The notes beneath the pieces are model-generated. The model was not told the origin of the DNA. It was given only the letters and a program-made list of their open reading frames with translations, and did not search any database. From contig DAIDIH010000122.1 of assembly GCA_027459465.1 (NCBI GenBank), positions 1-64,000 on the forward strand: a stretch of DNA of 64,000 nt, read 5' to 3'. Made by a program: the position numbers and the translations under genes. This DNA is from Bryobacterales bacterium. Lineage in GTDB: Bacteria > Acidobacteriota > Terriglobia > Bryobacterales > Bryobacteraceae. This document shows positions 24,262-34,180 of the stretch, one piece after another (within the stretch, counting starts at the first letter, position 1; every line of letters begins with the position of its first letter).

Positions 24262-24918
24262 TTAAGAAACGGGCGTTTGGCGGGCGATCCAGCGCATCCA
24301 CTCATCGAGCCCGGCGCCGGTCGAGCAGGACGTTTCCAGGATTTCGATATCCGGGTTGATCTTGCGCGCGTTCTCGCGGGCAAGGTCGAGTTTGAACGGG
24401 ACGTAGGGCAGCAGGTCGACCTTGTTCAAGACCATGAGGCGGGCTTTGCGGAAGATACCCGGGTATTTGAGCGGCTTATCTTCGCCCTCGGTGACGCTGA
24501 GGACAACGATCTTGGCCTGCTCGCCTAAGTCGTAACTGGTCGGACAAACCAGATTGCCGACATTCTCGATGAGAAGTACGTCCAGGCCGTCGAGATTCCA
24601 TCCATCCAGGCCGCGCTCGATCATCCGCGCATCGAGATGACAGGCGCCGGCGGTGGTGATCTGCCGTACCGGGAAGCCGAAAGGAGCGAGGCGCGCGGCG
24701 TCGTTGTCGGTTTGGATGTCCCCGGTGAGAACGGCGACTCGCGTCGACGGGTCGAAGCGGGCGAGGGTGCGTTCGAGCAACGAGGTCTTGCCGGAACCCG
24801 GAGAGCTGATCAGGTTCAGACAGACGATGCGCTTGCTCCGGAAGCTATCGCGGAGGTCAGCGGCGATGCGGTCGTTTTCACTGAGGACTTTCTTTTCGAG
24901 CGGGACTCGTTCCGTCAT
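24262..24918 (-). CDS. hypB: Hydrogenase nickel incorporation GTPase HypB (no N-terminal CxxCGC or His-rich extension)
   Basis: NLISSPGSGKTSLLERT P-loop, TGDIQTDNDA, CHLDARMI, LIENVGNLVCP, VLNKVDLLPY. Confidence 0.97.
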   Translation of the reverse strand: MTERVPLEKKVLSENDRIAADLRDSFRSKRIVCLNLISSPGSGKTSLLERTLARFDPSTRVAVLTGDIQTDNDAARLAPFGFPVRQITTAGACHLDARMIERGLDGWNLDGLDVLLIENVGNLVCPTSYDLGEQAKIVVLSVTEGEDKPLKYPGIFRKARLMVLNKVDLLPYVPFKLDLARENARKINPDIEILETSCSTGAGLDEWMRWIARQTPVS

Positions 24919-25160
24919 TCGTCGAACTCCAGGAAGGCCATTTGTAGCTCGTCTTGCGCGGTGCGTTCAATTTCCAGAGTAACGGAGGCGAACTCGGTGT
25001 CTTTGGCGAGCGCTTCGAAGCAGAAAGTGAGCGAGTTGACGTCGACGCCCGCGAAGTCGCCGAGGCGGAGGCCGATTTTGGAAAGGCGCTCGCCGGGCCG
25101 CAGATCCCACTGCTGGCGCGCCTGATCGAGGATCGCGGTGGCGATGGACAACTCGTGCAT
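24915..25160 (-). CDS. hypA: HypA-like nickel chaperone, 81 aa, lacking the CxxC...CxxC zinc domain
   Basis: MHELSIATAILDQARQQWD...IGLRLGDFAGVDVNSLTFCFEALAKDTEFASVTLEIERTAQDELQMAFLEFDE; position between hypE and hypB. Confidence 0.9.
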   Translation of the reverse strand: MHELSIATAILDQARQQWDLRPGERLSKIGLRLGDFAGVDVNSLTFCFEALAKDTEFASVTLEIERTAQDELQMAFLEFDE

Positions 25161-25164
25161 GAAG

Positions 25165-26175
25165 TCAGCAGATGCGGGGAAGTTGGTCGCCGGCGAGCAT
25201 ATCCACGATGCGTGTCGAGCCGAAGACGGTTCGCAGAGTGACTAGGCCGGGGTTGGCTTCGTTGACGCGGCCGATGACGCGAGCGTCCCGCCCGAGCGGA
25301 TGCGCCTGCATGGCCGCGACGATCGTGTCCGCGGCGGAGGGGGCGGCGATGGCGACGAGTTTGCCTTCGTTGGCCACGTAGAGTGGGTCGAGGCCAAGCA
25401 GTTCGCAGGCGCCACGAACCTCTTCGCGAATCGGAACGGCCTTCTCGTCGATCTGGATGCTGACGCGGGACTGCGCGGCGATTTCGTTGAGCGTGCTGGA
25501 GACGCCGCCGCGGGTGGGGTCGCGGAGGCAGCGGATCTCGCTGCTTGCGGCGAGCATCGCTTCCACCAGCGTGTACAGCGGGGCCGAATCGCTCGCGATG
25601 GGGCAGTCGAATTCCAGCCCTTCACGTTCCGAGAGAATCGCGATGCCGTGGTCCCCGATCGGGCCGCTGAGGATGACCGCGTCACCAGGGCGGGCATGGC
25701 CGGCAGAGAGATTCAGCCCTTCCGGCGCGAGGCCGATGCCGGTGGTGTTGATGAAAAGCTGGTCGCCGCTTCCCTTCTCCACCACTTTCGTGTCGCCGGT
25801 GACGATGGTGACTCCGGCATTGGAAGCCGCGGCGGCGAGCGACTGCGTTACACGCCTGAGCGTGTCGATTTCCAGGCCTTCCTCCAGCACGAACGCTGTG
25901 CTCAGGAACAAGGGACGGGCGCCGCCCATGGCGAGATCGTTGATGGTGCCGTGCACGGCGAGCGAGCCGATGTCGCCGCCCCGGAAAAACAGGGGTTTGA
26001 CCACGAAGGTGTCGGTGGTGAAGGCGAGGCGCGTGCCGTTAACTTCGACAATCGCCTGGTCTTCCAACCGGCCCAGGATGGGGTTGGAAAACGCGGGCAG
26101 GAAGACGTCCCGCATCAGTTCCGCACTCAGCTTGCCGCCGCTGCCATGCCCGAGCAGGACGGTCAGCCGATGCAT
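25165..26175 (-). CDS. hypE: Carbamoyl dehydratase HypE
   Basis: [22 protein letters not shown]-terminal PRIC motif. Confidence 0.97.
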
Positions 26176-27263
26176 ACGAGGTTCCTGCGATAGCTATAGT
26201 AGGCGGCACAAGCACCTTCGGAGGAGACCATCGGCGCGCCGAGCGGGTTCTCGGGCGTGCAGAGTGTGCCGAAGGCGGCGCAATCGACCGGCTTCTTCAT
26301 GCCTGTCAGAACTTCGCCGGCAATGCACTGCGCCGGTTCATCGACGCGAAGCGACTCGACATCGTAGACCCGTTCGGCGTCCCAGGCCGCGTATTCGTCG
26401 CGTATGCGGAGGCCGCTCTGGGGAATTTCGCCGATCCCGCGCCATTTGCGGTCCGCGACTTCAAAGACCCGATGCAAGGCCTCTTGCGCTCCCTGGTTGC
26501 CGTCGCGAGTGACAGACCGCACGTACTGGTTTTCCACTCCCGCGCGCCCTTCTTCGAGTTGCGTCACCAGCATGCGGATCGCTTCGAGCAGATCCACGGG
26601 CTCGAATCCGCCGACGACAAACGGGACGCGGTAGTACTCCGCCAGTGGAACGTACTCGCGATAGCCGATGACGGTGCAGACGTGGCCGGGGGCAATGAAG
26701 CCCTGGACGCGATTGCCAGGCGAGTCGAGCAGCGCGCGGATCGCGGGTGGGACGAGGACGTGCGAGGCAAGCATCGAGAAATTCCGCAGTCCTTCGCGGG
26801 CGGCTTGCAGAACCGCCATGGCGTTAGCCGGCGCGGTGGTTTCAAAGCCTACGGCGAAGAAAACGACCTGGCGCTCCGGGTGCTGGCGCGCGATGCGCAC
26901 GGCTTCCATGGGCGAATAGGCGATGCGCACATCGCCGCCGCCGGCCTTCACGCGCAACAAGTCGAGGCGCGAGCCGGGGACGCGCAGCATGTCGCCGTAG
27001 GAGACGAAGGTGACATTCGGGCGGGCGGCGATCGAGATGGCCTTATCGACGACTTCCAGCGGCGTGACGCAGACGGGGCAGCCGGGTCCGTGGACCAACT
27101 CGACTTCGGGCGGCAGCATCTGGTCGATGCCGTATTTCATGAGGGTGTGCGTCTGGCCGCCGCAGATTTCCATCAGCACCCAGGGACCCGTGACGCGCCG
27201 GGCGATCGAGCCGGCGAGAGCACGGGCAATCGAGGCGTCGCGATACTCGTCCAGATACTTCAC
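26163..27263 (-). CDS. hypD: Hydrogenase formation protein HypD
   Basis: [57 protein letters not shown]. Confidence 0.98.
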
Positions 27264-27502
27264 TCGCCGGGATCCTCCAGCAGGCCCATCTGCTCGAGGA
27301 TCTCATAGGTGCGTTTGGCTTCGGCCTCATCGACGCGGCTGATGGCGAAGCCGACGTGCACCATGACAAAATCGCCGGGCTGCGCTTCCGGGACCCAGTC
27401 CAGATAGGCCTGGCGGGTGATGCCGCCGAACTGAATGCGGCCGACGCGGTTATCGCCGATCTGTTCGGCGTCGAGAATCTTACCGGGGATCGCCAGGCAC
27501 AT
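27260..27502 (-). CDS. hypC: HypC/HybG/HupF family hydrogenase maturation chaperone
   Basis: [58 protein letters not shown]. Confidence 0.97.
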
Positions 27503-27989
27503 CGCAATACTCCTGTTTGAGGTTGGAAATGAGGCCGCGCGCGGCGGTTACCGCACGCGGGATGGCGGCCATCACGGCGCCGGAAAGGCCGATGCCGGTG
27601 CGTACAGATCCCGCTTCGATGCCGATGATCCAAGTCTGTTCCGGCAACTCACCCAGGAGGGCGGCGAAGCGAAGCAGTTCGGCGCCGCTGCCTTCGTGCG
27701 CGGTGGTGGCCCGGGGCATCGGATGGAGGAAAGGGAACCGCAGGACGTGAAGCGTGCCGGGTGCGCTGCCGAGCGAGACCGCATCGAGCAGGACCACGGC
27801 TTTACGTCCGCTGAGCCGCCCCATCAGAGCGAGGCCCTGCGTCCCGCCGTCGAGATACTCGACGGCGTCATCGTTGCCGGCGTCACGAGCGAGTTCTTCG
27901 AGCATTACCAATCCGGCCGCATCGTCGGTCAGCAGCGCGTTGCCGACGCCAAGTACCAGCAGCGGCGCCTCAACCGAAGAGGTCCGCAC
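27480..27989 (-). CDS. Hydrogenase maturation protease (HyaD/HybD family)
   Basis: LLVLGVGNALLTDDAAGLVMLEELA, DGGTQGLALMGRLSGRKAVVLLDAV. GTG start proposed at VRTSSVEAP; the ORF is open to 28106 but upstream residues overlap the cytochrome b gene. Confidence 0.88.
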   Translation of the reverse strand: MRTSSVEAPLLVLGVGNALLTDDAAGLVMLEELARDAGNDDAVEYLDGGTQGLALMGRLSGRKAVVLLDAVSLGSAPGTLHVLRFPFLHPMPRATTAHEGSGAELLRFAALLGELPEQTWIIGIEAGSVRTGIGLSGAVMAAIPRAVTAARGLISNLKQEYCDVPGDPR

Positions 27990-28009
27990 CTTCCGGGCAC
28001 GGGGCTTTT

Positions 28010-28038
28010 CTTTAACTGACCCAACTTTAGCTGACCCA
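28010..28038. repeat. Short tandem duplication at the cytochrome b stop codon (CTTTAACTGACCCA / CTTTAGCTGACCCA)
   Basis: 13/14 identity at 15-bp offset; both copies carry an in-frame minus-strand TAA. Confidence 0.75.
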
Positions 28039-28746
28039 GCCACCGGGATCAAGGTCGCCCTCCTCGTAGAACTTGAAGCCCGACACGATCGAAGACAGCA
28101 ACCCATTCCGGTACTGGGCGGAGTCGTAGAGAACGATGTAGATGTGCAGAACGAAGAACACCACGAAGCCCCAGGCGAACAGATGATGCCACATGTGGAG
28201 GCGGTATGAACCGCCCATGAGCGGAATCACCCAGCCCACCAGATGGTCCCAGAAGCCGCCGGGGCGGCTCTCGGAAAACATCGCAAAGCCGGTGATGATC
28301 TGCGCCCAGCCAAGGCCGATCACGAACACGGTGTAGGCGAGGCCGGCGAGTGCGTTGTGGCCCAGATGAACGTGGCCGCGTTCGAGTTTCAGGTAGGCGA
28401 CGATCTGACGGGTGAGGTCACGCCACCAGGTTGCGCGCCAGATGAAGGGGAAACCGGAGCGGGCATAGTTGCTTCCCATGTAGAACCAGTAGATCCGTAG
28501 AAGGAAGCTAACCAGAAACACCATGCCCGCGCCGAAGTGGACTTCCCGGACGCGGCCCATGACGAAGTGCTTGTACGCCTCGCCGGCGGGAGAAAGCTGG
28601 GGGGATGCGATGTAGAGTCCGGTGGCGAACAGCGTGGCGAGCGCCAGCACATTCACCCAATGGCAGATGCGGACGGGTAGCTCCCACACGTACTTGCGCC
28701 CATACCGGGCGCCGGAGATGCCGAGATGCAAGGGTCTCGTCGCCAT
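28027..28746 (-). CDS. [NiFe]-hydrogenase b-type cytochrome subunit
   Basis: WELPVRICHWVNVLALATLFATGLYIA, MGRVREVHFGAGMVFLVSFLLRIYWF, LHMWHHLFAWGFVVFFVLHIYIVLYD. Confidence 0.95.
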   Translation of the reverse strand: MATRPLHLGISGARYGRKYVWELPVRICHWVNVLALATLFATGLYIASPQLSPAGEAYKHFVMGRVREVHFGAGMVFLVSFLLRIYWFYMGSNYARSGFPFIWRATWWRDLTRQIVAYLKLERGHVHLGHNALAGLAYTVFVIGLGWAQIITGFAMFSESRPGGFWDHLVGWVIPLMGGSYRLHMWHHLFAWGFVVFFVLHIYIVLYDSAQYRNGLLSSIVSGFKFYEEGDLDPGGWVS

Positions 28747-28758
28747 AAGCGGCCTCCT

Positions 28759-30477
28759 CTAACGAACGACGATTTCGGCCAGTTTACGGCCATCCGGACC
28801 GATGACATGCGAGGCGCAAGCCAGGCAGGGATCGAAAGAATGGATCGTCCGCAGGATCTCAACGGGACGCTGCGGATCGGCCATCGGCGTGCCCATCAGG
28901 GCCGCTTCGTAGGCGCCGTGCTGGCCTTGGGCGTCCTTGGGCGAAGCGTTCCAGGTCGAGGGTACGACCATCTGGTAGCGGGCGATCTTGCCCTCATGGA
29001 TTTTGACCCAGTGGCCGAGGCTCCCGCGCGGAGCCTCGGTGAAGCCGAAACCTTTGGCGTCTGTGGGCCAGGTTGCGGGGGAGAACTTCGTGGTGTCGGC
29101 GGTGGTGGTGTCGCCGCTTTTGAGGTTGGCCATCAGTCGGTCGTACTCCGCCTGCAGCCACCCGACGGCGAGTTTGGTTTCCAAACCTCGCGCCGCCGTC
29201 CGGCCAAGCGTGGAAAACAGCGCCGAGGCGTCCACCTTCAGCCGTCCGAGCCCGTCGTTGACGACTTCTTTGATCTCCGTATTTCCCGAAGCGTAGCCCA
29301 CGATCATCCGGGCAAGCGGGCCGACCTCGACCGCATGGCCCTTCCAACGCGGGCACTTCAGCCAGGAGTATTTGGCGTTCTCGTCCAACTGCTCATAGGG
29401 AGGTTTCGGACCGGTGTAATTGGGTTCGGTCACACCGTCCCAGGGATGCAGCGCCTGCTGGCCGTTGGGGTAGGTGTACCAGGAGTGGGTGACTTCCTCG
29501 CGAACTTGATCGGGGTCGGCGAGGTCGACCGGGAGAACTTCCGCGAGGTTCTTGTTGAGGACCACCCCGCGCGGGAAGCGGAAGTGCGAGGGGTCGTTCA
29601 GGCCGTTCTGCGGGATGTCGCCGTAGGACATGAAACTGCCCAAGCCGCCGCCGTACTTCGTCCATTCCGGATAAAACGAAGCCACGGCAAGCAGGTCCGG
29701 GATGTAGACGCCGTTGACGAAGTCGTCGGCCTGCTTAATCAACTTGCCAACGAGGTTCAACCGCTCAATGTTGATCGCGTTGTCTCCATTTAACGAGATC
29801 GCCGAAGCAACGCCGCCGACCTGGTAGTGGGGATGGGGATTCTTGCCGCCGAAGACGGTGTGAATCTTGATGATGTCCTTCTGCCAGCGGAGTGCTTCGA
29901 GGTAGTGCGCCACCGCCATCAGGTTGGCTTCGGGGGGAAGTTTGTAAGCCGGATGGCCCCAATATGCGTTCTGGAAAATGCCGAGCTGGCCGCTTTCGAC
30001 GAATTTTTTCAGCGTGTTCTGGGTGTCGGTGAAGTAGCCTGGGGTGGACGTGGGCCAGTGTGGGGAAACGGTCTGAGCAAGATCGGCGGTGGCCTTGGGA
30101 TTAGCCTTGAGCGCCGAGACCACGTCCACCCAGTCGAGCGCGTGCAGGTGATAAAAGTGGATGACGTGATCCTGCACGTGCTGTGTCAGCTCCATGATGT
30201 TGCGGATGATCTGCGCATTGCGCGGGACATCGATGGCGAGCGCATTTTCGACCGCCCGGACCGAGGCCAGCGCGTGAACGGTGGTGCAGACGCCGCAGAT
30301 GCGCTCGCAGAACGCCCAAGCGTCGCGGGGATCGCGGCCTTCGAGAATTACTTCGATGCCGCGCCACATGGTGCCGGTGGAGGCGGCGTTTTCAATGACG
30401 TTATGGTCATTCAGCATCGCCTCGATACGGAGGTGGCCTTCAATGCGTGTGATGGGATCAACGACAACTCGTTTCAT
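28759..30477 (-). CDS. [NiFe]-hydrogenase large subunit (group 1 uptake type)
   Basis: N-terminal FCERICGVCTTVHALAS and C-terminal DPCLACASH ligand motifs; processing site followed by VIGPDGRKLAEIVVR. Confidence 0.98.
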   Translation of the reverse strand: MKRVVVDPITRIEGHLRIEAMLNDHNVIENAASTGTMWRGIEVILEGRDPRDAWAFCERICGVCTTVHALASVRAVENALAIDVPRNAQIIRNIMELTQHVQDHVIHFYHLHALDWVDVVSALKANPKATADLAQTVSPHWPTSTPGYFTDTQNTLKKFVESGQLGIFQNAYWGHPAYKLPPEANLMAVAHYLEALRWQKDIIKIHTVFGGKNPHPHYQVGGVASAISLNGDNAINIERLNLVGKLIKQADDFVNGVYIPDLLAVASFYPEWTKYGGGLGSFMSYGDIPQNGLNDPSHFRFPRGVVLNKNLAEVLPVDLADPDQVREEVTHSWYTYPNGQQALHPWDGVTEPNYTGPKPPYEQLDENAKYSWLKCPRWKGHAVEVGPLARMIVGYASGNTEIKEVVNDGLGRLKVDASALFSTLGRTAARGLETKLAVGWLQAEYDRLMANLKSGDTTTADTTKFSPATWPTDAKGFGFTEAPRGSLGHWVKIHEGKIARYQMVVPSTWNASPKDAQGQHGAYEAALMGTPMADPQRPVEILRTIHSFDPCLACASHVIGPDGRKLAEIVVR

Positions 30478-30485
30478 GGCTCACC

Positions 30486-31589
30486 TCACTCGCTTTCCCG
30501 GGCGCCGGCTTCCGGCGTCTTCTTCGTGGCCTTTCGCGCGACGTGAGAAATCAGATGAGCTCCCACGCCGATGCCCGTAAGTACAGTCAAAGTCTTGCCG
30601 ATCTGGTCCGGCGTCGATTCGATACCGGGCACTAGGACATTGGACAAGCGCTGGGTGAAGGGGCCGTTGTCCCAGAAGCCATCGGCCGCGCAGCCGATGC
30701 AGGGGTTGCCGGACGAAATCGGGAACCCGCAACCGTCGTTCCAGCGCATGCTCGAGCAGGCGTTGTAGGTCGTCGGCCCGCGGCAGCCCATCTTGTAGAG
30801 GCACCAGCCCTTTTTCGCTCCCTCATCGTCCCAGGACTCGACAAACATGCCGGCGTCGAAGAAGGCGCGGCGGTAGCACTTGTCGTGAATGCGCTGGCCG
30901 TAAAACATCTTCGGGCGGCCCTCGCGGTCGAGTTCGGGAAGGGCGTCGAAGGTCAGGATGTAGGTCAGCACGCCGGTCATCACTTCGCTGATCGGCGGGC
31001 AGCCTGGGACATTGATGATCGTGCGATCGGTGATTAGTTCATGGACGGGCTTGGCCCCCGTCGGGTTCGGTTTCGCCGCCTGCACGCAGCCGTTGGAGGC
31101 GCAGGATCCCCAGGCGATGATCGCCTTTGCCCCTGCCGCGGTTTCCTTGAGGACGTTTAGAAATGTATCACCGCCTACGGTGCAATAAACACCGCCGTCC
31201 TTCGTCGGTGCGTTCCCTTCGACGGCCAGAAGATACTGGCCCGGATGCTCCTTCATAACCTTCTTCCGGATCTCTTCGACCTGGAAACCCGCGGCGGCCT
31301 GCAGGGTGTCGTCGTAGTCGAGCGAGATCATGTTCAGGACAATGTCCTGGGCCACGGGATGAGCTGAGCGGATGAAGGACTCGCTGCAGCAGGTACATTC
31401 CAGGCCGTGCAGCCAGATCACCGGGATGCGCGGCTTCGTTTCCATCGCCGCAACGACCTTGGGGACCATGGTGGCTTCCAGACCGAGGGTGGCGGAGATC
31501 GTAGTGCAGAACTTCAGGAAGGTTCGCCGGTCGACGCCGTGCTGTTTCAACACGTCGTAGGTTGAGAGAGTGCGCGTGGAAAGGGGCAT
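30486..31589 (-). CDS. [NiFe]-hydrogenase small subunit, Tat signal, six-Cys proximal cluster type
   Basis: Tat motif DRRTFLKFC; WLHGLECTCCSESFIRSAHP and AWGSCASNGCVQAAKPNP; C-terminal TM anchor. Confidence 0.97.
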   Translation of the reverse strand: MPLSTRTLSTYDVLKQHGVDRRTFLKFCTTISATLGLEATMVPKVVAAMETKPRIPVIWLHGLECTCCSESFIRSAHPVAQDIVLNMISLDYDDTLQAAAGFQVEEIRKKVMKEHPGQYLLAVEGNAPTKDGGVYCTVGGDTFLNVLKETAAGAKAIIAWGSCASNGCVQAAKPNPTGAKPVHELITDRTIINVPGCPPISEVMTGVLTYILTFDALPELDREGRPKMFYGQRIHDKCYRRAFFDAGMFVESWDDEGAKKGWCLYKMGCRGPTTYNACSSMRWNDGCGFPISSGNPCIGCAADGFWDNGPFTQRLSNVLVPGIESTPDQIGKTLTVLTGIGVGAHLISHVARKATKKTPEAGARESE

Positions 31590-31933: not shown

Positions 31934-34180
31934 ATGGGTTCTGAGCCGAATCGCGCGGCCGTCTTGCGGAAGCGAATCCACATACAAGGCATCGTCCAAG
32001 GCGTCGGATTCCGGCCGTTCGTGTACGAACTCGCCGTGGCGAACCAGCTAGCGGGATGGGTTAGAAACTCGTCCGAAGGAGTATTTATCGAGGTCGAAGG
32101 ACCGGTGGGCGGCCTCGAGGCATTTGAGGCGGACTTGATTAACCGGCGGCCCGTGCTGGCCCAGGTTGACCGGGTACAGATAACGGACATTCCTCAGCAA
32201 GGAACTCGGGATTTTGTCATTCTGGAGAGCGCGCAAGTTACAGGGGAGTTTGTCCTGGTTCCTCCAGACATAGCCACCTGTGCGGAGTGTTACAACGACT
32301 TTACAGATCCCGCGAACCGCCGTTACCGGTACCCGTTTACCAATTGCACCAACTGTGGGCCGCGTTACACGATTATCCGGGACATCCCTTACGACCGCCC
32401 GGCAACGACGATGGTGGAGTTTCCGATGTGTGCGGACTGCCAGGCCGAGTATGAGAATCCGGCAGATCGCCGGTTCCATGCCCAGCCGAACGCCTGTGCC
32501 AAGTGTGGTCCGGCCCTGACGGCACCCATCGAGAGGGCACACGGTTGGTTAAGGGAAGGCAAGGTTGTGGCGATCAAGGGGCTGGGTGGGTTCCATCTGG
32601 CTTGCGACGCCACCAACGGCGATGCGGTGCGCAGGCTGCGGGAGCGAAAGCGCCGCAGCGACAAGCCCTTCGCGATCATGGCGCCGGACTTAGCCGCGGT
32701 GGAGCGGTGCTGCGAAGTCAGCCCGGCGGACCGGGAGGCTTTGGTGAGCCCCCGGCGGCCGATTGTGATCCTGCCGCGCCGGACGGGAACAGCGATCTCG
32801 GACGCTGTCGCGCCGGGAAATAAGACGGTCGGCGTCATGCTGCCTTACACGCCCTTACATCACCTTTTGTTCGAGCGGGACGGCGGGCGGTTCGAGGCGC
32901 TCGTCATGACCAGCGGCAATGTCAGCGAAGAACCAATCGTGAGCCGGGAAGAAGAACTTCCGCGGCTGGCATCGCTCTACGACGAAGTCCTGGCGCATAA
33001 CCGGAAGATCCAGACGCGGGTGGACGATTCGGTTGTGCGGACGTTTGAAGGGCAGGTGCGTGTCGTGCGGCGGTCGCGCGGGTTTGCGCCCCAACCGGTG
33101 CGGCTGGCTTTTGACATGGCGCCCGCGCTGGGAGCAGGCGGCGAACTGAAGAATACCTTCTGTTTGACCAAGCAGAGTTATGCGATCTTAAGCCAACATA
33201 TCGGCGACCTGGAAAATCTGGAAACGCTCGAATTCTTTCACGAGACTCTAACGCATATGAAGCGGTTCTACCGGATCGAGCCGGAAGTCGTGGGCTATGA
33301 TCTTCATCCGGGGTATTTGAGCACGCGCGCCGCGCTCGAGATGCAGGGCGTGAAGAAGGTCGGCGTCCAGCATCATCATGCCCACATCGCAAGCTGCATG
33401 GCGGAGAACGGGTTACAGGAGAAAGTCATCGGCGTTTCGTTCGACGGGACGGGTTACGGGACGGACGGGCAGATCTGGGGCGGCGAATTCCTGGTCTGCG
33501 ATTTCTTGGGTTTCGAGCGTTGCGGGCACTTACGGTATGTACCGCTCGCCGGCGGTGACGCCGCGGTGCGCGAGCCCTGGCGGATGGCGCTCAGCTACGC
33601 ACGGGACGCGTTTGGGCCGGACGTTCCGGACCAACTCTTTGCGAGAATCGATCCACGGCGGCGGGCGGTGGTCGGTGCCATGCTTTCGCGGAGCGTGAAC
33701 ACGGTTCTGACTTCCTCGTGCGGGCGGTTATTCGACGCAGTGGCTTCGCTGATCGGCCTACGCGATGAAACCAACTATGAAGGGCAGGCGGCGATCGAGT
33801 TAGAGGCGCTGGCAGAAGACGGCGTTGAGGCGCGATACGGCTTCGAAATGAATGGCGATGAAGTGGACCTGCGCCAGGCGATCGCGGAGATCGTGGCCGA
33901 CGTGCGGAAGGGGATGGGAGCGGGAAAAATCGCGGCGGCGTTTCACAATACCGTGATTGCCGTGATCGTCGAGGGGTGCCGTCGAACGAGAGAATCGCAC
34001 GGCCTCGAGAAAGTTTGTCTGAGCGGCGGCACGTTCCAGAATTTTTACCTTTTGCGCCGCGCCGTACATGGCCTGCGGCAGGCCGGTTTCGAGGTGTACT
34101 TGCACTCTCAGGTTCCGGCCAACGATGGAGGCATCGCGCTGGGGCAGGCGGTGATCGCGGCGGAGGCGGCGAGGCGCTGA
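31934..34180 (+). CDS. hypF: Carbamoyltransferase HypF
   Basis: Acylphosphatase domain (HIQGIVQGVGFRPFVYELA), CAECYNDFTDPANRRYRYPFTNCTNCGPRYTI zinc fingers, HHHAHIASCMAENG. Confidence 0.98.
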   Translation: MGSEPNRAAVLRKRIHIQGIVQGVGFRPFVYELAVANQLAGWVRNSSEGVFIEVEGPVGGLEAFEADLINRRPVLAQVDRVQITDIPQQGTRDFVILESAQVTGEFVLVPPDIATCAECYNDFTDPANRRYRYPFTNCTNCGPRYTIIRDIPYDRPATTMVEFPMCADCQAEYENPADRRFHAQPNACAKCGPALTAPIERAHGWLREGKVVAIKGLGGFHLACDATNGDAVRRLRERKRRSDKPFAIMAPDLAAVERCCEVSPADREALVSPRRPIVILPRRTGTAISDAVAPGNKTVGVMLPYTPLHHLLFERDGGRFEALVMTSGNVSEEPIVSREEELPRLASLYDEVLAHNRKIQTRVDDSVVRTFEGQVRVVRRSRGFAPQPVRLAFDMAPALGAGGELKNTFCLTKQSYAILSQHIGDLENLETLEFFHETLTHMKRFYRIEPEVVGYDLHPGYLSTRAALEMQGVKKVGVQHHHAHIASCMAENGLQEKVIGVSFDGTGYGTDGQIWGGEFLVCDFLGFERCGHLRYVPLAGGDAAVREPWRMALSYARDAFGPDVPDQLFARIDPRRRAVVGAMLSRSVNTVLTSSCGRLFDAVASLIGLRDETNYEGQAAIELEALAEDGVEARYGFEMNGDEVDLRQAIAEIVADVRKGMGAGKIAAAFHNTVIAVIVEGCRRTRESHGLEKVCLSGGTFQNFYLLRRAVHGLRQAGFEVYLHSQVPANDGGIALGQAVIAAEAARR

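Follow-up and report, generated by a model that had tools for sequence, protein, structure and literature searches.

In the usual account HypA has two domains and a conserved zinc site, which in H. pylori is needed for both hydrogenase and urease activity. Glu3 and Asp40 of H. pylori HypA have been named as likely nickel ligands beside Met1 and His2, and alanine at three of the four zinc cysteines leaves hydrogenase at 9–12% of wild type, about the level found on disruption of hypA (PMC5557546). The T. kodakarensis protein contributes His98, which completes a nanomolar, high-affinity HypAB nickel site (PMC7055735). The HypB of A. fulgidus and that of E. coli depend on two N-terminal hydrophobic residues to bind HypA (PMC3287977). 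A HypA without a zinc domain has, as far as we could find in the open-access literature, no published description. Here we describe such a protein, encoded in a 64,000-nucleotide stretch of DNA from a Bryobacterales bacterium (the window).

A complete hydrogenase operon with a short hypA

The minus strand of the window carries an operon in the order small subunit, large subunit, probable cytochrome b, protease, hypC, hypD, hypE, hypA and hypB, with hypF divergent. The features are as follows.

24262–24918, minus: hypB, the nickel/GTPase partner, overlapping hypA by 4 bp (TIGR00073, 271.7 bits, above cut-off)
24915–25160, minus: hypA, zinc-domain-less, 81 aa (PF01155 match; the only HypA above the Pfam cut-off in the genome)
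24918–24953, minus: retained C-terminal strand DELQMAFLEFDE, counterpart of the end of zinc-bearing HypA, GGDELELAYLELEE (sequence and hhalign)
24948–24959, minus: predicted tight turn, residues 68–71, at the site of zinc-ribbon excision, joining two strands as a hairpin (AlphaFold strands and position of the hhalign gap)
25152–25160, minus: codons of Met1-His2-Glu3, the nickel-binding motif (sequence; conserved across zinc-less HypAs)
25165–26175, minus: hypE (TIGR02124)
26163–27263, minus: hypD (TIGR00075)
27260–27502, minus: hypC (TIGR00074)
27480–28106, minus: hydrogenase maturation protease (TIGR00072, match from residue 50; the true start is probably downstream of the listed ATG)
28027–28746, minus: probable cytochrome b subunit of the hydrogenase (named by position and sequence character; conserved in syntenic loci)
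28759–30477, minus: [NiFe] hydrogenase large subunit (PF00374, 774.9 bits; motifs RICGVCTTVH and DPCLACASH)
30486–31589, minus: [NiFe] hydrogenase small subunit (TIGR00391; Tat-like N-terminus; CTCC six-Cys proximal-cluster motif)
31934–34180, plus: hypF, divergent (TIGR00143, 785.1 bits)

The complete hyp operon and the 4-bp overlap of hypA with hypB are thus as the initial annotation had them, and they couple the short gene both to hypB and to a [NiFe] hydrogenase. HypB of the window retains the GACH and VGNLVCP metal-site motifs and lacks the CxxCGC extension. Its N-terminus has a hydrophobic-x-hydrophobic pattern (VPL), in which V5 and L7 are equated with the two known HypA-binding residues by position only.

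The best PDB matches of the small subunit are C. necator HoxK and E. coli hydrogenase-1, and the nearest solved structures to the large subunit are membrane-bound O2-tolerant hydrogenases. Both features of group 1d, a six-Cys small subunit and similarity to the O2-tolerant membrane-bound enzymes, are therefore present, and we take the hydrogenase to be group 1d-like on the basis of the CTCC motif and its likeness to HoxK and hydrogenase-1.

Excision of the zinc ribbon

The hypA gene begins with ATG and encodes 81 residues, MHELSIATAILDQ...VTLEIERTAQDELQMAFLEFDE (complete translation, MHELSIATAILDQARQQWDLRPGERLSKIGLRLGDFAGVDVNSLTFCFEALAKDTEFASVTLEIERTAQDELQMAFLEFDE). It scores 53.1 bits against PF01155, where the gathering cut-off is 28.9, with the match restricted to profile positions 1–67 of 112. 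The score against the NCBI hypA equivalog TIGR00100 is 37.2 bits, far below the cut-off of 88.1, and equivalog-level annotation therefore likely misses HypAs of this type, which form a sizeable group. There is no CxxC in the protein, and thus none of the canonical two-CxxC zinc site. Between positions 24700 and 25400 no remnant of a zinc domain was found in any frame, the single CxxC there lying in another minus-strand frame. Nor is there space for one at hypA, where 4 bp separate the gene from the end of hypE and its stop codon is overlapped by hypB.

In its MHE site, N-terminal fold and final strand, as in its hypB neighbour and hyp operon context, the protein resembles canonical HypA/HybF (PF01155; TIGR00100; PDB 3A43, 2KDX, 6G81, 5AUN, 5YXY), from which it differs in the absence of the CxxC-n-CxxC zinc ribbon of ~33 residues. 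It can accommodate neither the pH/nickel-sensing zinc site of H. pylori HypA nor His98 of T. kodakarensis HypA, for which it has no counterpart. The N-terminal Met-His-Glu nickel motif is retained: Met1, His2, Glu3 and Asp40 are invariant in an alignment of 17 zinc-less HypAs from Acidobacteriota, and His2 and Glu3 in one of 26 from several phyla.

Alignment by hhalign of 26 zinc-less with 13 zinc-bearing HypAs (probability 100, E = 5e-42, 82 aligned columns) contains a single gap, of ~33 residues, which is exactly the zinc module. Zinc-bearing HypAs of the same family typically terminate in GGDELELAYLELEE, and in the zinc-less proteins the strand LEIE.. passes directly to DELxxxxLELEE. AlphaFold predicts a compact domain (pLDDT 94.2, pTM 0.81) with helices at residues 2–19 and 41–52 and strands at 25–34, 61–67 and 72–80; a zinc-bearing HypA modelled as a control has the same elements plus the ribbon. 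In the model, strands 61–67 and 72–80 are closed into a hairpin where the ribbon has been removed. The top 14 PDB matches of the model in Foldseek are all HypA (TM (query) 0.70–0.81), in agreement with a nickel-domain fold. A phmmer search of PDB with the single 81-residue sequence recovered no HypA; a profile built from the alignment did recover it. The reading made initially from the letters alone, of an MHE start, an N-terminal fold and a final strand, with the whole CxxC...CxxC segment missing by clean internal deletion rather than truncation and no Cys-rich remnant nearby, is thus borne out by frames, PF01155, relatives and a confident prediction of the HypA nickel-domain fold.

Three zinc-bearing loci of the same family (L097, L101 and L106) share the order SSU-LSU-cytb-protease-hypC-D-E-A-B and have large subunits 75–78% identical to that of the window, and they differ in HypAs of 114–123 residues with both CxxC motifs. 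Close relatives with a full zinc domain at the same locus, which the initial annotation had named as evidence against its reading, do not occur among the matching genomes of the genus. Full-zinc loci with this gene order are found in more distant members of the family, and they show that the domain was lost in evolution and that its absence is no artefact. These orthologues also offer matched controls, from operons with the same gene order, for the study of the short form. One genome classed as zinc-less by match range (G518) was rejected, as its sequence contains both CxxC motifs.

Distribution of zinc-less HypA

HypA without the zinc domain recurs in several phyla, beyond what could be seen from the window itself. 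In an order-level sample of 200 genomes, 78 of which gave a match, the zinc-less form was read in 22 Bryobacterales genomes (the window and 21 others); a few weak, low-identity matches were left unread. Two further Acidobacteriota (G506 and G484) carry it outside the order. Further cases came from a scan of named genomes, in three Gemmatimonadota, a deltaproteobacterium and a member of the Gemmataceae; in all five the zinc-less form is the only HypA above cut-off.

A Pfam survey of Gemmatimonadota was bimodal, with N-half-only matches in 44 of the 69 HypA-bearing genomes, full matches in 27 and both in 2. All 19 loci fetched proved zinc-less by sequence, which with the three from the named-genome scan makes 22 loci read in this phylum; many have hypA-hypB adjoining a 1d-like hydrogenase. 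At three of the loci (L318, L324 and L325) hypC/D/E are ~34–43% identical to those of the window, compared with ~43–66% in sister loci, a difference hinting that these hypCDE sets may have been replaced.

Among Planctomycetota, 21 of 68 HypA-bearing genomes match only the N-half of PF01155, and none of the 20 loci fetched has a CxxC after residue 55. These short HypAs (L331–L348) are mostly 82–91 residues long and resemble that of the window in their MHE or VHE start (in most), in having no zinc motif and in adjoining hydrogenase genes. They differ in belonging to another sequence subfamily, with a hydrogenase of another type as neighbour, and in that HypB was not found in nearly all of the genomes. 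HypB above the TIGR00073 cut-off is missing in 19 of the 21 (20 of them read by sequence), compared with its presence in all six planctomycetes with zinc HypA (one-sided hypergeometric p ~1e-4, calculated by hand and ignoring relatedness). One of the 20 fetched loci (L337), from a planctomycete outside the 21 (G860), encodes a HypA with a His-rich, Cys-containing insert (SKIPEHKHERVETCHDHSEEISR...) and without a CxxC zinc ribbon.

The 80 Pseudomonadota yielded no zinc-less HypA, the one candidate (L328 in G1287) being rejected as a contig-end truncation. A few weaker matches in the sample of the deltaproteobacterial phylum were left unread, and a search of plasmids gave one distant match only. 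A link between zinc loss and one particular group of hydrogenase was considered and dropped, as group-1d-like loci occur with both forms of HypA; the different hydrogenase of Planctomycetota also contradicts it.

Number of losses

On a tree of the concatenated HypA N-domain and HypB from 47 Acidobacteriota the zinc trait requires five changes, with 4–6 in bootstraps and never one in 200. Forcing all the zinc-less rows together was rejected (AU p 0.0033); for the 16-row main zinc-less group alone, a set picked after seeing the tree, the AU p was 0.015. The zinc-bearing L101 and L106, both in 1d-like operons, nest within an otherwise zinc-less clade, a placement that could reflect repeated loss or recovery of the domain through gene exchange. 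The cross-phylum tree, of 66 columns, is poorly resolved and needs 19 changes, three of them forced by starred branches. The zinc ribbon has apparently been lost several separate times, and HypA without a zinc domain would then have arisen more than once.

Probable function of the short protein

We consider the 81-residue protein to be a working minimal HypA, a nickel chaperone acting with an ordinary HypB, and give this reading a probability of roughly 0.8. It is based on the retention of the nickel motif with Asp40, of the α-β-α-β fold and of the C-terminal strand. HypB, through its nucleotide cycle, would load nickel onto the Met1-His2 (Glu3/Asp40) site, and the zinc-less HypA would bring the metal to the still immature large subunit of the hydrogenase, with no need for the zinc domain. 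Two considerations count against such a function: the low TIGR00100 score, and the H. pylori cysteine mutants together with the T. kodakarensis His98 site, which make activity without zinc surprising. Point mutants that misplace zinc may, however, be worse than a clean removal of the ribbon. If the protein works as proposed, HypA would be able to do without the ribbon, an accessory module that has disappeared on more than one occasion, and the minimal nickel-delivery unit would be open to direct study in 81 residues. It is a further guess that loss of the ribbon is favoured in genomes whose HypA has hydrogenases as its sole clients.

The source is a MAG of 410 contigs, 94.6% complete with 7.27% contamination, and a short hypA in such an assembly might have arisen through faulty assembly or sequencing, or be a pseudogene in decay. 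Two other genomes of the genus (G173 and G077) nevertheless encode in-frame zinc-less HypAs of the identical 81 residues at 96% and 95% identity, and a third (G096) has a more divergent one of 83 residues, so that all three other matching genomes in the genus are zinc-less and none has the full zinc domain at the locus. Pairwise dN/dS among the 81-residue genes is 0.144, 0.115 and 0.117, from small counts (3–5.5 nonsynonymous and 6–12.5 synonymous changes), and the gene is under purifying selection. Because the same form is encoded in two further genomes of the genus with low dN/dS, it is neither an assembly error nor a decaying gene; with the confident predicted fold, and dozens of independent genomes having zinc-less forms of their own, we regard an artefact as wholly improbable. 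It is also very unlikely, if a little less so, that a separate protein provides the zinc domain in trans. The C-half of PF01155 does give weak matches in the genome (16.9–17.1 bits), but the two best are zinc-ribbon proteins on other contigs which we take to be FmdB-like (MPMYEYRCQKCGERF...). The locus holds no CxxC remnant, and hypE, hypA and hypB follow one another too tightly to leave space for a further ORF; the gene neighbours compared systematically were the searched hydrogenase and hyp genes only.

More deserving of attention, though still unlikely, is the suggestion that the 81-residue protein no longer carries nickel itself and only activates or docks HypB, the latter delivering the nickel alone. 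HypB in the window keeps its own metal site, and the short HypA has nothing equivalent to the His98 of the high-affinity HypAB site described previously (PMC7055735). On the other hand, His2-Glu3 is retained in every aligned zinc-less form, and the planctomycete proteins persist in genomes where HypB was not found. The planctomycete case allows a wider reading, which we put forward tentatively and with the balance slightly against it: the zinc ribbon may be a module that HypA can shed and has shed independently on many occasions, its loss in Planctomycetota accompanying that of HypB and leaving a one-protein nickel chaperone of ~87 residues that would load another type of [NiFe] hydrogenase without the HypB GTPase.

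Regarding the clients of the working HypA that we favour for the window, a second [NiFe] hydrogenase is encoded in the MAG on contig C233 (L350), with a HoxH-like large subunit beside HoxY-like and HoxU-like ORFs; urease alpha gave no match in the MAG. Unless C233 is a contaminant, the single HypA would therefore have two hydrogenases to supply, the group-1d-like membrane enzyme and the HoxH-like one. Two near-duplicate stretches in this MAG (L002 and L003, on G000:C5 and C136), each with an FmdB-like and a flavin-reductase-like gene, are consistent with its 7% contamination or with a mixture of strains.
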